A DNA stretch of 64,000 bases from Actinotalea ferrariae. GTDB lineage: Bacteria > Actinomycetota > Actinomycetes > Actinomycetales > Cellulomonadaceae. The stretch covers positions 1 to 64,000 of the forward strand of contig NZ_JACVQL010000051.1 in the NCBI RefSeq assembly GCF_019733465.1, written 5' to 3'. Shown here one piece after another: positions 4,247-57,732 of this stretch (positions within the stretch are counted from its first letter, which is position 1; the number at the start of each line of letters is the position of its first letter). The notes beneath the pieces were generated by a model. The model was not told where the DNA came from, did no database searches, and saw only the letters and a program-made list of their open reading frames with translations. The position numbers and the translations under genes were made by a program.

Positions 4247-5986
4247 ATGACCACCACTTCCGGCCCGGGCGAGGCTCGTCCGGGCGGCACGACGCCGCTC
4301 CTGAGCATCCGTGACCTCGAGGTCTCGTTCCGCACGGAGCAGGGGACCACGACGGCCGTCCGCGGCGCGTCGTTCGACGTCCACGCCGGCGAGACCGTCG
4401 CGATCGTCGGCGAGTCCGGCTCCGGCAAGTCGACCACCGCGATGGCCGTCATCGGCCTGCTGGCCCAGAACGGCCACGTCAGCGGCGGCCAGATCCTCTT
4501 CGAGGGCAAGGACATCACCAGGCTCGGCGGCGCGGGGCTCGCGCGCATGCGTGGGACGGACATCGGCATGGTCCCGCAGGACCCGATGTCCAACCTCAAC
4601 CCGGTGGTCCGGGTCGGCGCGCAGATCGTCGAGGCGCTCGAGGACAACGGCGTCGCGCGCGGTGCCGAGGCGCGTCGACGCACCGTCGAGCTGCTCGAGG
4701 AGGCGGGGCTGCCCGACGCCGAGCGCCGCGCCCAGCAGTACCCGCACGAGTTCTCGGGCGGCATGCGGCAGCGCGCGCTCATCGCGATGGGCCTGTCCTG
4801 CCGGCCGCGCCTGCTCATCGCGGACGAGCCGACGTCGGCTCTCGACGTGACCGTGCAGCGGACGATCCTCGACCGCCTCGAGCAGCTGACCGGTGAGCTG
4901 GGCACCGCGGTGCTGCTCATCACGCACGACCTCGGCCTCGCGGCCGAGCGCGCGAGCCGGGTCGTCGTCATGTACCGCGGCGAGGTCGTCGAGACCGGGC
5001 CGGCGGCCCAGCTCCTCACGGACCCGCAGCACGAGTACACCCGGCGGCTCCTCGCGGCCGCGCCGTCGCTCGCCTCGCGGCGCATCCAGATCGCGAAGCA
5101 GTCGGGCGCGACCGAGGCCGTGGCCGACGACCTCCTCGCGGCGTCCGCCGAGGCGCCCCCCGCGGCGGCGGACGACCCGATCGTCGAGGTCGACGACGTC
5201 ACCAAGGTGTTCCACCTGCGCGGCGAGGGGCTGTTCTCGCGCGGGACGGACTTCACGGCCGTCGACCACGTGAGCTTCACGATCCCGCGCGGGTCGACCA
5301 TGGCGATCGTGGGCGAGTCCGGCTCGGGGAAGTCGACCGTCGCGCGCATGATGCTCGACCTGCTCCCGCCCACGTCCGGGACCATCCGCTTCAACGGCGA
5401 GGTGGTGGGCGGCGAGCGTGCCGACCGCCGGGCGGAGGTGAGGTTCCGGCGGCAGGTCCAGCCGATCTTCCAGGACCCGTACTCGTCCCTCGACCCGCTG
5501 TACACGATCTACCGGACCATCGAGGAGCCGCTGCGGGCGCACGGCGAGGGCTCGGCCGCGGACCGCCGCGAACGCGTGCTGCAGCTCATGGACGACGTCG
5601 CGCTCTCACCGGACCTGCTGCGCCGGTACCCGGGCGAGCTCTCGGGCGGTCAGCGGCAGCGCGTGGCGATCGCGCGTGCCCTCGCGCTGAACCCCGATCT
5701 CGTGGTGTGCGACGAGGCGGTCTCGGCGCTCGACGTCATCGTGCAGTCGCAGATCCTGCACCTGCTCGCGGACCTGCAGCAGCGGCTGGGACTGAGCTAT
5801 CTGTTCATCAGCCACGACCTCGCGGTGGTCCGGCAGATCGCGGACCAGGTGTGCGTCATGGAGCGCGGCCGCATCGTCGAGCAGGGCTCGGTCGACGACG
5901 TCTTCGACAACCCGCAGCAGCCGTACACGCAGGCCCTCCTCGACGCGATCCCCGGGCGCAGCCTGGCCCTCGCGGTCGGCGACTGA
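4247..5986 (+). CDS. Fused two-domain ABC ATPase (DppD-DppF type)
   Basis: This is the energising subunit of the importer, with both nucleotide-binding domains in one 579-residue chain instead of two genes. Domain 1 (about residues 15-275) has Walker A GESGSGKS, signature FSGGMRQR and Walker B LLIADEPTSALD, then the Dpp/Opp C-terminal region (HEYTRRLL). Domain 2 (about 315-575) repeats this with GESGSGKS, LSGGQRQR and VVCDEAVSALD, ending in PYTQALL. The Walker B of domain 2 reads CDEAVSALD where the family usually has CDEPVSALD, a mild change. The start at 4247 is 5 bases after the permease stop. An upstream in-frame extension overlaps the permease and is not credible. Confidence 0.93.
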   Translation: MTTTSGPGEARPGGTTPLLSIRDLEVSFRTEQGTTTAVRGASFDVHAGETVAIVGESGSGKSTTAMAVIGLLAQNGHVSGGQILFEGKDITRLGGAGLARMRGTDIGMVPQDPMSNLNPVVRVGAQIVEALEDNGVARGAEARRRTVELLEEAGLPDAERRAQQYPHEFSGGMRQRALIAMGLSCRPRLLIADEPTSALDVTVQRTILDRLEQLTGELGTAVLLITHDLGLAAERASRVVVMYRGEVVETGPAAQLLTDPQHEYTRRLLAAAPSLASRRIQIAKQSGATEAVADDLLAASAEAPPAAADDPIVEVDDVTKVFHLRGEGLFSRGTDFTAVDHVSFTIPRGSTMAIVGESGSGKSTVARMMLDLLPPTSGTIRFNGEVVGGERADRRAEVRFRRQVQPIFQDPYSSLDPLYTIYRTIEEPLRAHGEGSAADRRERVLQLMDDVALSPDLLRRYPGELSGGQRQRVAIARALALNPDLVVCDEAVSALDVIVQSQILHLLADLQQRLGLSYLFISHDLAVVRQIADQVCVMERGRIVEQGSVDDVFDNPQQPYTQALLDAIPGRSLALAVGD

Positions 5987-7172: not shown

Positions 7173-8368
7173 GCACGACCGGCGGGCCGGGGCGGCGCGT
7201 CGCCGTCGTCGGGGCGGGCGTCAGCGGCCTGGCGCTCGCCACGTTCCTCGCGCGCGACGGGTGGCACGTCACCGTGCTCGAGCGCACGCCCGACCTCGGA
7301 CCGGTCGGTGCCGGGATCCTGCTGCAGCACCTGGGTCAGCAGGTCGCCCACCGGCTCGGCATCGGCGAGGCGCTGCGCGCGCTGTCCGCGCCGGTCCGGC
7401 GGGTCGACGGCGCGACGACGTCGGGCATGACGACGATGAGCTTTGCGTACGCCGACGGCGTGCCGGGCGCGATGGGGTGGGGCGTGCACCGGGGCGACCT
7501 CTTCACGCTGCTCCACGAGGCCGCGGTCGACGCGGGGGCCGTCGTGGTGCCGCGCTGCGAGGTCGTCGGCCTGCGCCGGAGCGGCACGGGGTGGTCTGTC
7601 GAGGCGGCCGACGGCGTCGTGCACGGACCGTTCGACCTCGTGGTCGGGGCCGACGGTGCCGGCTCGCGGGTCCGCGCGCTCGCCTTCGAGCCGCGCACGG
7701 ACCGACGGTACGGCTGGGGCGCGGTGTGGGCGATCGTGCCCGACCCCGAGCACCTCGCGGGCGACGCGCTGGTGCAGCGCTGGCGCGACACGCGGACGAC
7801 GCTCGGCCTGCTGCCGACCGGACGCGACCGCGTCTCGATCTTCTGGTCCGTCCGAGCGCGCGAGGCCGACGCCGTCGTCGCCGCCGGACCGGCGGCGTTC
7901 GTCGACCGGGTGGCGCCGCTCGCCGGCCGCTTCGCGCCGCTCGTCGAACGAGTCGCGGACGTGGGGCTGCTCCCGGCCCGCTACCGCGACGTCGTCGTGG
8001 GCTCGCCGGTGGGGGACCGGGTCGTCCTCGTCGGCGACGCCGCGCACGCGATGAGCCCGCAGCTCGGCATCGGGGCCAGCATGGGCCTGGCCGACGCGTG
8101 GTCGCTCGCGTGGGCCCTGCGTGAGCACCGCGACGTCGGTGCGGCGCTCGCCGCGCACGCGGACCTCCGACGCCGCCACGTCACCGCCTACCGGTGGCTG
8201 TCGATGCTGCTGACGCCGGTGTTCCAGTCCGGCCTCGTCCCGATCGGCCCGCCGCGGGACGCCGCGCTCGCCGTCGCGTGCCGCACCGGGTTCGTCCGGC
8301 GCCAGGCGGTCTCGCTGCTCATGGGCACCCGGCTCCTGCCGCGGGGGACGTGGTCGCTGCCGGGCTGA
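7169..8368 (+). CDS. FAD-dependent monooxygenase (PHBH/UbiH fold), apparent CTG start
   Basis: This is a flavoprotein hydroxylase of the class that oxidises aromatic or polyketide-like substrates with NAD(P)H and oxygen. The frame contains the N-terminal dinucleotide-binding motif VAVVGAGVSGLALATFLARD. The middle motif VVGADGAGSRVR follows, and the C-terminal FAD motif VVLVGDAAHAMSPQLGIGAS. The first motif begins only about 12 codons after the pfkA stop, and no ATG, GTG or TTG occurs in frame before it. The best start is a CTG at 7169 that overlaps the pfkA stop as CTGA and sits 5 bases after AAGGTG. A GTG at 7274 would cut off the FAD-binding motif and is unlikely. The substrate is unknown. 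Confidence 0.78.
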   Translation: MSTTGGPGRRVAVVGAGVSGLALATFLARDGWHVTVLERTPDLGPVGAGILLQHLGQQVAHRLGIGEALRALSAPVRRVDGATTSGMTTMSFAYADGVPGAMGWGVHRGDLFTLLHEAAVDAGAVVVPRCEVVGLRRSGTGWSVEAADGVVHGPFDLVVGADGAGSRVRALAFEPRTDRRYGWGAVWAIVPDPEHLAGDALVQRWRDTRTTLGLLPTGRDRVSIFWSVRAREADAVVAAGPAAFVDRVAPLAGRFAPLVERVADVGLLPARYRDVVVGSPVGDRVVLVGDAAHAMSPQLGIGASMGLADAWSLAWALREHRDVGAALAAHADLRRRHVTAYRWLSMLLTPVFQSGLVPIGPPRDAALAVACRTGFVRRQAVSLLMGTRLLPRGTWSLPG

Positions 8369-12606: not shown

Positions 12607-12662
12607 GAGGGTTCCTGTCGTTCGGTGGCTGGGCTGCCCTCGTGGGCCCCTGGCTCTGCGTC

Positions 12663-12678
12663 CCCGCCTCTCGGCGGG
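12663..12678. other. Hairpin in the bldC-uvrB intergenic region
   Basis: CCCGCC, TCTC loop, GGCGGG forms a 6-bp stem followed by TTT on the plus strand. It could lie in the 5' leader of the bldC-like transcript or stop read-through toward uvrB. A perfect 11-base palindrome, GACCTGAGGTC, follows at 12694-12704 and may be a protein-binding site. Confidence 0.4.
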
Positions 12679-12776
12679 TTTGCCCTTGTCGCTGACCTGA
12701 GGTCGGTTCCTGGGGGTCAGGATCGGCCTCTTTCCACCTATCGGGGCGAAACCGGACATGCTTGAGGTGATTGTTG

Positions 12777-54946: not shown

Positions 54947-55037
<91 letters not shown>

Positions 55038-55040
<3 letters not shown>

Positions 55041-55073
55041 AGGGCCGCACCGCTTCGGCGGGGCGGCCCTTCT
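55038..55073 (+). terminator. tRNA-Pro terminator hairpin
   Basis: AGAAGGGCCG (55038-55047) pairs with CGGCCCTTCT (55064-55073), a 10-bp stem just after the tRNA. A structural copy with compensating base changes follows the second att site. Confidence 0.75.
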
Positions 55074-55080
55074 GCGAATC

Positions 55081-55096
55081 GGGGGAGCCTAGGGGG
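55081..55096 (+). repeat. GGGGGAGCCTAGG motif, copy 1 (inside attL)
   Basis: GGGGGAGCCTAGGGGG shares its core GGGGAGCCTA with two fuller copies at 57200-57218 and 57429-57447. It lies about 40 bases from the att repeat, as the third copy does. Confidence 0.6.
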
Positions 55097-55145
55097 CGCC
55101 CAAGTTGCGTCAAGGGGTCACTGCGGGACTCCACTCGTGGTGACG

Positions 55146-55986
55146 ATGGCGAAACGACGCGAGGAGCTCGTCGCGCTGGTGGAGTGCGTGTCGCGGAGCA
55201 TCGGTGCGCGACATTGTCGCCGCGACACTCGAGGGCAGATGGATCGACACGGGCATCATCGCCGTCTCCTTCGTCCCCGCCGTCGGCGACATTGCGGGAG
55301 CGGCCGCAAAGTTCGCGAAAGCGCTGCCGCGCATGGCCGAACCGGCTGCCGCAGCTGCGCGCCGTTGGCTGATGAACCTGTGGTCGTACGCGGACGACGC
55401 CGGGATGGCCGGTCACCGGAGCATCGACGACGTCGTCGCCGATTTCCGGCCGGCCTACCCGGACGTCGTGAGTCGCCTCGAGAACCCGGACATCCCCGCC
55501 GAGCGTATCGCTGCGATCCTCAATAAGAACTTGCCGGCGAGAATTCAGAACTACCCCGTTCTCGCCGACGAGGGCAAGGTGATCCTCCGGTTCGACTACC
55601 CGAACGAGAATCTCAGGCCGGGCTCCTACTTCTCGGGCCGCTCCGCCGAAAACTGGATTCGGGAGGTGATCGGCTCGTCTCCTCGTCCATCAATGCAGAC
55701 CTTCCCCGACTTCGTGCACAACGGTAGAACTCTCGGCCATGTGGGTCGGGTGCACGACGCGGCCTACCGAGTCGGGGTCCGGAACGTCCTGGTCGAGATA
55801 AAGATGGGGGTCGGGGCAAGGTCTGGGCGCCAGATCGCCATGGACGCCAGCTTGTTGCGAACGGTGTGTCTGTGCAGTGGCACTACGTGATGTCGGCATG
55901 GACGGGGCGAACTGGACCCTCAAATGCGAATCTCTCGAGACTGACGGAGGCTGGAATCCGTCGTGATACACTTCCCGGTCTCGTGA
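55146..55986 (+). pseudogene. Polymorphic toxin C-terminal region, PD-(D/E)XK-like nuclease, frameshifted
   Basis: The main frame (from GTG 55204) encodes a pre-toxin hydrophobic segment (IIAVSFVPAVGDIAGAAAKF). The nuclease region contains FPDFVHNGRTLGHVGRVHDA and VLVEIKMGVG (ExK motif), then GRQIAMDASLL. At 55857 a base appears to be lost, and the frame runs into a stop at 55888. The adjacent frame continues with ANGVSVQWHYV, TGRTGPSNANLSRL and TEAGI, the expected toxin end. At about 55959 one extra base restores the first frame, which closes VVIHFPVS and stops at 55984-55986. A further frame change near 55203 separates a possible upstream part (REELVALVECVSRSIG). Full-length proteins of this type have large N-terminal delivery regions, missing here. 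Confidence 0.7.
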
Positions 55987-57056
55987 TGCAAATCGTCGAA
56001 TTGCGGTTGGAGTCGCCGGAGCGGGCGGCGGAGTTCTGCGCGTACACGATCGCACGGGAGCCGTGGTTCTTGGCGGAGCTGGCCCGGTGGATGGCTGACA
56101 CGGGTGGTCCGCTGGAGCAGATGGACGCCACGGCGGAGTCGCTGGTGCCCTTGTGGGAGTGGTTTATCAGCTTCGTCGACGCGGATCTTCCCGGGTTGCC
56201 GGCGGACGCGGTGTGGGCGCTGTCACCGGTGGTCGACCACCGATTGCCCGTCCGTGCCTGTGCGGCGGGGGAGCGGGTGATGCACTACGTGCGCCTGGTG
56301 CTGGAGCACTACGAGCCGGAGGCGCAGTGGACAGTGTTGGGCGGGACGGCGGACTACGCCCACTTTCAGGACACTGGTCTCCCGTGGCCGCAGAGGGCTG
56401 ATGGCATTCAACCGTGGGAGTTCGTGCTGAACCTGGCCTCGCACGTCGGTGAGGGAACGGCGCGGTTCCGGCAGGCGACGGCGCTGGCAGAGGTGGTGCG
56501 GTCGGTAACCGGCACGACCCTTTCCGCCACGAGTGGTGATGAGCGGGGCGCTTCGGTGCTGGCGTCGTATCTGAGCGCTGATCTCGGGCCGATGCCGGAG
56601 TTCGCGCGGGTGTCGCCGGTGGTGCGGTGGTGGGCCGAGGACGACGCCGGCCACGCGCCGGCACGGACGGCACCGGAGCCTCTTCAGGGGGGGTTCTTCG
56701 AGCGGGAGGACCGGGTGCTGGCGGCCGGTTCGGGGCGGGCGATCGCAGAGGAGCGGGACGACCGGTTGCGCCCGCTGGACGTCGAGCAGGTCGCCGCCGC
56801 GCTGACAGCCATCGGTTTCACCGCCGGGGACGGCGCGGTAGGGGCCCAGCACCTGCTCGACGAGCAGCCGGTGAGCGTACACACCGAGGATCTGCAGGCG
56901 ACGGCCGAGCCGGCATGCCACAGGGGTTCTCTGCGCCGTCTGGACATCGCGGGACCGCTGGCGACCGACCAGGGCTGGGAGCGCCTAGAGAGCACGATGA
57001 CCGCCCTCGCCCGACAGCTGCGCGCCCGCTACACGGACCCGGACGCCTTCGACTGA
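55986..57056 (+). CDS. Putative immunity protein paired with the toxin remnant
   Basis: This 356-residue protein starts MQIVELRLESPERAAEFCAY. The ATG at 55986 shares a base with the toxin stop (TGATG), the translational coupling seen in toxin-immunity pairs; the frame is open further upstream only because it is the shifted toxin frame. The sequence is acidic and Trp-rich, with AREPWFLAELARWMADTGG and LVPLWEWFISFVDADLPG. I know no family name for it. The role as antidote is inferred from position and from similar gene pairs in Actinobacteria. The gene is intact while the toxin is not. Confidence 0.6.
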   Translation: MQIVELRLESPERAAEFCAYTIAREPWFLAELARWMADTGGPLEQMDATAESLVPLWEWFISFVDADLPGLPADAVWALSPVVDHRLPVRACAAGERVMHYVRLVLEHYEPEAQWTVLGGTADYAHFQDTGLPWPQRADGIQPWEFVLNLASHVGEGTARFRQATALAEVVRSVTGTTLSATSGDERGASVLASYLSADLGPMPEFARVSPVVRWWAEDDAGHAPARTAPEPLQGGFFEREDRVLAAGSGRAIAEERDDRLRPLDVEQVAAALTAIGFTAGDGAVGAQHLLDEQPVSVHTEDLQATAEPACHRGSLRRLDIAGPLATDQGWERLESTMTALARQLRARYTDPDAFD

Positions 57057-57199
57057 CGCTCGTCACCCCGAGTGACGCCCCCGCCGCCGCCCGGCGACGC
57101 CCGCTACTTTCCATGCCGCGCTCACGCCTGCCGGTTCGGATTAACCCGTCGTCCTTCCTAGCGCGGTCGCCTGCATGCGCATCACTGCCCCTGCCGGGT

Positions 57200-57218
57200 G
57201 CCTAAGGGGGAGCCTAAG
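57200..57218 (+). repeat. GCCTAAG-GGGGA-GCCTAAG direct repeat, copy 2
   Basis: Two GCCTAAG units flank GGGGA. 35 bases further on, ATGGAC occurs twice with a 10-base period (57253 and 57263). The region 57057-57320 otherwise contains no gene I can support; it is the right arm of the island. Confidence 0.7.
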
Positions 57219-57320
57219 TCGGCGGACTAGGGGCGGACGAAGCCGAACGCCGATGGACGCGTATGGACCCTGACCTGCGGGATCGGCGAGAAGAGACGGC
57301 TCGCTGAGCGGGGGAGCGGA

Positions 57321-57384
57321 GACTGGGGGTCAAGGGGTCGCAGGTTCAAATCCTGTCATCCCGACAGTGAAAGAGCAGGTCAGA
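57321..57384 (+). repeat. attR: 64-base copy of the tRNA-Pro 3' end
   Basis: This is identical to 54977-55040. It is not a tRNA gene because the 5' half is missing. Confidence 0.92.
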
Positions 57385-57415
57385 GGCCCGCACCGCTTCG
57401 GCGGAGCGGGCCTTT
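57384..57415 (+). terminator. Terminator hairpin after attR
   Basis: AGGCCCGC (57384-57391) pairs with GCGGGCCT (57406-57413), followed by TT. The loop CACCGCTTCGGCGG is nearly that of the tRNA-Pro terminator, while the stem differs by paired substitutions. Confidence 0.65.
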
Positions 57416-57428
57416 GAGTTGCTGGAAC

Positions 57429-57447
57429 GCCTACGGGGGAGCCTACG
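57429..57447 (+). repeat. GCCTACG-GGGGA-GCCTACG direct repeat, copy 3 (outside attR)
   Basis: It has the same architecture as copy 2. TGGAC again occurs twice 10 bases apart (57455 and 57465). Its presence outside attR suggests a second element was once integrated beyond it. Confidence 0.7.
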
Positions 57448-57515
57448 TACGTCCTGGACGAACATGGACGCGGGCAGCACGGGCGTGGACAACCCCCAGA
57501 GTCGGCCGGCGGACG

Positions 57516-57564
57516 ACTGGGCTCATCACCCAGAGGTCCCAGGTCTAGATCCTGCCGCCGCTAC
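57516..57564 (+). pseudogene. Degenerate 3' half of an initiator tRNA (CAT anticodon)
   Basis: CTGGG CTCATCA CCCAG forms an anticodon stem-loop with CAT, followed by AGGTC, a T-arm-like CCAGG TCTAGAT CCTG and a 3' end CGCTAC. The order and bases resemble the 3' half of actinobacterial tRNA-fMet with several mismatches. The 5' half is absent, so this looks like an old att remnant. The 260 bases from here to the YceI gene hold only the hairpin and promoter elements listed next. Confidence 0.6.
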
Positions 57565-57577
57565 AGAGTGACGAAGG

Positions 57578-57597
57578 CCCGGACCTCACGGTCCGGG
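57578..57597 (+). terminator. Hairpin after the tRNA remnant
   Basis: CCCGGACC, TCAC, GGTCCGGG is a perfect 8-bp stem at the place where a tRNA terminator would be. Confidence 0.6.
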
Positions 57598-57732
57598 CGT
57601 TCGTCGTTCCTGCAACCAGCCCACGCCTATCGACCGCGTCGACCGCCTGAAGGCAGCGCGCCGGGGTTCATCCTGTCCGGGCGGGTGGAGTCTGCGCAAT
57701 GCGGTGCCGCCAGCTGCACCACGTACGATGTG

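Follow-up and report, generated by a model that had tools for sequence, protein, structure and literature searches.

A decayed 3′ half of tRNA-fMet beside a tandem tRNA-Pro array in Actinotalea ferrariae: the probable fossil of a displaced tRNA end

Displaced tRNA fragments that mark the ends of integrated islands are well known, as described in the Islander work (PMC4383910). In Actinotalea ferrariae, a displaced tRNA-Pro half is followed, 132 bases further on (57384 to 57517; the preliminary description of this DNA saw the proximity correctly and gave 130), by what appears to be the end of a different gene, that of the initiator tRNA, raising the question of what this piece is and how it came to lie beside an island at another tRNA. 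The genome has 4.26 Mb of high GC content in 426 contigs, and the window, that is, the whole stretch of 64,000 nucleotides analyzed here, belongs to contig C374. The only tRNA gene in the window is tRNA-Pro, and the intact tRNA-fMet gene is found on another contig, C113; the cognate intact tRNA that lies upstream, on the same strand, in a tRNA-integrated island is missing from the window.

The fragment (57517..57564, plus strand) covers the gene from the anticodon stem to the terminal CTAC and is identical to the intact tRNA-fMet gene on C113 at 42 of 48 bases. In the match to the second fMet copy of this genome (C124:13160-13257), the similarity continues through the hairpin that follows (88%, E 6.8e-28), which bears out the earlier reading of this site as a decayed 3′ half of tRNA-fMet with its terminator. 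The local alignment to the genome's own tRNA-fMet, proposed as a check in the preliminary description, gave a score of 66, clearly above chance: 2000 dinucleotide shuffles yielded a mean of 13.4, a standard deviation of 2.3 and a maximum of 26, and the runner-up among the 30 own tRNA genes compared (43 tRNA matches were found in the genome) reached only 24. When the whole window was scanned on both strands in 104-base pieces with a step of 26, the fMet fragment had the top score, followed by tRNA-Pro (49) and the displaced Pro half (41). Chance resemblance to tRNA-fMet is excluded.

A covariance model of fMet 3′ ends, trained on 27 such ends, taken from relatives and C124 with the window left out, finds 57517-57604 at 85.3 bits, the next match being the Pro half at 29.7 bits; the 27 sequences of alignment A1 were picked by an exact 43-base fMet string, so that their invariance holds by construction and is not evidence. 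The covariance search suggested earlier thus succeeded with the fMet-specific model, whereas the general Rfam tRNA model did not report the fragment at E values up to 10; nor did ARAGORN. This silence is expected because the fragment is a decayed half. The complete cloverleaf of a functional tRNA gene is absent, the 5′ half being missing; what is present, by both alignment and covariance model, is a 3′ piece of a tRNA gene of this genome, as in displaced tDNA.

The fMet-type terminator hairpin (57570..57605, plus strand) consists of the arms 57570-57585 and 57590-57605, which form 15 of 16 pairs; the hairpin is therefore not perfect, as had been stated, its arms being 94% complementary with one mispair. 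An Rfam threonine-leader match (29.7 bits against a cut-off of 55) was taken as spurious. The short tail 3′ of the hairpin (57606..57621, plus strand) resembles, by eye, the tail of some relatives' chromosomal fMet loci, and the match in genome G058 extends to query position 123. In genus g3, intact fMet genes carry the same terminator class, with all 28 examined loci of full length, so that chromosomal fMet genes are a normal place for this terminator. The same class is also found on short repeated tails in genomes G007 and G004 and, therefore, mobile modules may carry it as well. On the minus strand of one G007 locus (L123; G007:C41:50001-60000), three fMet acceptor ends, each with terminator and tail, lie in a row (1205-1277, 5295-5369 and 7915-7967), 2.6-4.1 kb apart and 32-39 kb from the intact fMet gene; in the two copies checked, TGACCTG precedes the GATCCCCCCGCTAC core by 49 bases, and a 737-aa ORF between two of the copies looks DUF262-like by eye.

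Upstream of the fragment, the integration target, an intact tRNA-Pro (GGG) gene, is located at 54947..55021 on the plus strand (ARAGORN; Rfam RF00005, 64.5 bits). It is followed, on the same strand, by the remnant of a first Pro element (55041..57320) with two long ORFs, 55204-55890 and 55866-57056, and by the displaced tRNA-Pro 3′ half (57321..57384), an exact 64-nt repeat of 54977-55040. Neither long ORF has a Pfam match at E 0.01, and accordingly no integrase, recombination or conjugation gene was recognised in them; the 2.3-kb cassette between tRNA-Pro and the displaced half (55041-57384), with its two long overlapping ORFs, is possibly a small non-autonomous module. Past the Pro half come a hairpin (57384..57414, plus strand; 90% to 55041-55071) and, at 57420..57494 on the plus strand, a probable left-end arm belonging to a second tRNA-Pro element: sequence matching all or part of this segment is found in 8 genus genomes, where it starts, by comparison of coordinates, 3-28 bases 3′ of the tRNA-Pro match; all 8 have an intact tRNA-Pro and a displaced Pro half as well. 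The earlier claim of accretion beside the tRNA-Pro attR agrees with this arrangement, in which, as expected of tandem accretion at tRNA-Pro, an exact 64-nt repeat is succeeded by a second left-end-like arm. A Pro-type arm after the second Pro half suggests that the first Pro element was succeeded by a second, whose body has since been lost. Tandem accretion is reportedly a feature of ICESt1, too.

The fMet half starts 22 bases past the end of the arm match. In displaced fMet halves, TGACCTG precedes the anticodon loop by 62-63 bases in 4 of the 7 tested and by 75 in another; the motif is absent upstream of our fragment, as it is at the displaced halves L043 and L045. Because a Pro-type arm lies upstream and the fMet-element arm motif is missing, the junction (57495..57516, plus strand) is probably a break, and the tandem Pro array thus appears, from its sequence, to end in a broken junction with the fMet fragment. 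The two tRNAs have an exact 20-nt stretch in common, and hybrid integration at this stretch was considered and rejected, given that the fragment aligns to tRNA-fMet from the anticodon stem to the 3′ end. Some further short sequences were noted in these regions: TGACCTGC at 57271-57278 and its reverse complement GCAGGTCA at 57375-57382 flank the Pro half, and TGACCTG upstream of several fMet halves has a counterpart in CAGGTCA-like bases after an element-type fMet half in genome G008; these could possibly be sites for recombination proteins.

Is tRNA-fMet a target of integration in its own right? The segment 57410-57640, used as a query, has a match in 18 of the 19 genus genomes. Displaced fMet halves that carry the fragment's terminator class were found in A. 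ferrariae itself (C124) and in six other genomes (G002, G003, G005, G009, G013 and G017), whereas those of G008 carry the other terminator class. In four genomes, the intact fMet gene is on the same contig as the displaced half, at a distance of 90 kb (G002), 9 kb (G005), 52 kb (G009) or 93 kb (G017). A tyrosine integrase (PF00589, E 7.9e-25) adjoins the C124 half, and its homologues, with 57-81% identity over the aligned stretches, are located beside the fMet halves of G002, G005, G008, G009 and G017; none was detected at E 1e-10 in the stretches searched in G013 and G003. These displaced halves, several of them beside one integrase family and, in four genomes, at 9-93 kb from the intact gene, mark tRNA-fMet as a hotspot of integration in this genus. 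The possibility that one integrase family serves both tRNA targets found no support: the homologues of the C124 integrase occur in fMet loci only, and 45 Pro-locus stretches searched at E 1e-10 contained none, although these stretches are 1.6-20 kb long (31 are under 4 kb and several overlap), so that a distant integrase would be missed. By eye, the intact tRNA-fMet on C113 (L040, 8335-8409) and the C124 half with its integrase (L039, 13160-14524) look like the two ends of one element split over contigs, and both sides contain short repeats of the GTACGC type.

The fragment in the window begins at gene position 28. Among 10 other displaced fMet halves, the one on C124 begins at 26, others at 31, 32 and 32, five at 33, and one, a gapped match, at 7, so that the fragment starts within 5 bases of the usual start (31-33). 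Elements integrated into tRNA-fMet leave a fragment of this kind at their far end (attR), and it is plausible that this one was itself once an att site. The view that this is the remnant of a tRNA att site, put forward in the preliminary description, is accordingly supported in part: the kind of fragment, its start near the usual boundary, and a terminator and tail like those of displaced halves and of relatives' fMet loci all fit, but the arm motif present at 5 of 7 displaced halves is lacking and no integrase is seen beside the fragment.

The fragment is also the most changed of the 77 distinct fMet 3′ ends in the fetched loci, with differences at 6 of 43 positions; the other 76 show no change (66 ends), one (7), two (2) or three (1), in a count of unfiltered ends reaching the 3′ end that, at a BLAST E limit of 1e-6, misses pieces still further decayed, for instance the G007 tails. 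Judged by eye from the alignment, the T-loop of the fragment has three of the six changes, and the anticodon loop, T-stem and acceptor arm have one each. With this much damage, the fragment cannot be a working tRNA half, and it probably does nothing now.

A Pro half followed after 145-175 bases by an fMet half, searched as an exact pattern, was found in only 1 of 221 family genomes, A. ferrariae itself, a count that is a lower bound given that the exact pattern misses decayed cases. The fMet model, applied to the 45 Pro-locus stretches (one of which is the window, with several overlapping), detected nothing else above 38.2 bits, most of the weaker matches being to the Pro 3′ ends. Seven single-contig genomes have both places listed, and in these fMet and Pro are 0.63-1.52 Mb apart (two of these genomes, G112 and G170, were entered by their fMet match, which may not be the intact gene); adjacency of fMet and Pro is, therefore, not the usual state.

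The sequence on the other side of the fragment offers little to tie it to either hotspot. The GC content is 64-71% in the 1-kb windows starting at 55.0-58.0 kb compared to 71-79% on either side, so the fragment lies inside a GC-poorer stretch. A YceI gene (PF04264) is found 3′ of the fragment; the YceI part has DNA matches of 65-70% in many genus genomes, and two Antribacter records hold homologues of the protein (54-56%), neither of which has a tRNA within 10 kb. At the other 12 of 14 YceI loci, BLAST revealed a single weak fMet-like match, in an archaeal bin, and otherwise no fMet or Pro pieces. The ORFs of the right flank (57605-65474) have no homology to the fetched Pro or fMet right flanks, with two weak exceptions, namely, a 124-aa stretch with a 69% match 14 kb from the fMet copies of G007, which also occurs far from fMet in G007:C6 and G011, and, in the right flank of fMet in G017, a 63-aa stretch with 43% identity. 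Thus, apart from these two stretches, a native fMet or Pro flank is unsupported in the stretches fetched. The segment 58466-58624 has 81-94% matches at several places in G002 and G018 and, in part, G009, and looks by eye like a remnant of an IS3-type orfA. Elsewhere in the window, at 12621-12694 on the minus strand, there is a c-di-GMP-I riboswitch aptamer (42.8 bits).

Taken together, we consider the fragment to be, with a probability of roughly two in three, the fossil of a displaced tRNA-fMet 3′ end that entered the Pro island and was severed from its element by a deletion. An fMet-associated tyrosine integrase would have made the original split at a chromosomal fMet locus, and the fragment would later have reached the Pro hotspot by way of a mosaic element or by inter-island recombination. 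A deletion could then have removed the body of the Pro element along with the arm of the fMet element, after which the fragment would have drifted in sequence. No intermediate stage of this history was found, either with the pattern in the 221 family genomes or with the model on the 45 Pro-locus stretches.

The main rival, which we regard as possible but unlikely, is that an element of the Pro array carried a whole tRNA-fMet with its terminator as cargo and that the deletion of the body took the 5′ half, too. In its favor, 62 records of a plasmid collection match, and of the three inspected, two align to tRNA-fMet over 75 of 75 positions and one over 68 (one of the three being a 2.66-Mb Nocardia record that may be chromosomal), and five family genomes, four from genus g3 and one from g17 (loci L209-L213), contain two full-length tRNA-fMet genes 1.9-10.9 kb apart; the upstream junction, moreover, is a break in any case. 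A random break, however, would by our estimate land that near the usual att boundary (within about 5 bases) in only about 1 case in 7, the tail after the hairpin is like that of chromosomal fMet loci, and none of 50,697 phage records matches at E 1e-3, so a phage origin has no support either. Alternatively, recombination between a Pro element and an fMet element might have fused two islands, leaving a Pro left end, an fMet right end and, to the right of 57605, a flank that once lay beside tRNA-fMet. Such a fusion should yield just this pairing of a Pro-type left end with an fMet-type right end, and both the 20 nt common to the two tRNAs and the 124-aa stretch with its G007 match would fit; still, we find this improbable, considering that the genome's own fMet locus by eye keeps both its left-end-like side (C113) and its right end (C124), that the fragment is no hybrid at the common 20 nt, that the 124-aa stretch also occurs far from fMet, and that no other common right-flank gene emerged except for the 63-aa stretch. 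An assembly error joining two contigs is very improbable: the assembly is fragmented, in 426 contigs, and both neighbors are repeated sequences, but the junction is inside a 65-kb contig, and the fragment is not identical to either of the other fMet pieces in the genome (C113 and C124) and, therefore, is not a misplaced copy of one of them. A broader proposal, that modules bounded by tRNA tails move between unlike tRNA hotspots in the family, joining Pro left ends with fMet right ends, seems doubtful to us; if modules do change hotspot in this way, the fragment would be the mark of a chimaeric element or of a tail-bounded module that switched hotspots.

Compared to known systems, the displaced fMet end that we favor resembles the displaced tDNA described for Islander (PMC4383910) in being a 3′ tDNA fragment on the same strand as the upstream tRNA, with a boundary near the anticodon loop and the terminator retained. 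Unlike in that description, the intact gene upstream is tRNA-Pro rather than the cognate fMet, no integrase is seen among the two long ORFs in between, and the fragment is decayed (PMC4383910). For Actinobacteria, tandem elements, tRNA remnants serving as sites and related integrases using different tRNAs have been described (PMC3218068). As in the tandem AICEs reported there at one tRNA, two Pro-type element ends lie in a row, in this case mostly deleted, whereas the array ends here in a fragment of another tRNA and its two long ORFs, without Pfam matches, show no recombination or conjugation gene (PMC3218068). The fragment is likewise comparable to the tRNA-gene remnants used as integration sites in that account, being a tRNA 3′-end remnant without a gene, although no element was recognised as inserted at it (PMC3218068). 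Displaced tRNA halves and tandem accretion are, then, already known, and the non-cognate neighbor is the only unusual point.

The fragment marks both tRNA-Pro and tRNA-fMet as hotspots within a single actinobacterial genus and indicates that a piece of one can end up beside the other. Islander matches every tRNA fragment to its own tRNA within one replicon, so a finder of this type would not use an orphan, non-cognate fragment (PMC4383910). Because finders that rely on such pairing would pass over orphan fragments, scars of this kind could serve to trace exchange between islands.
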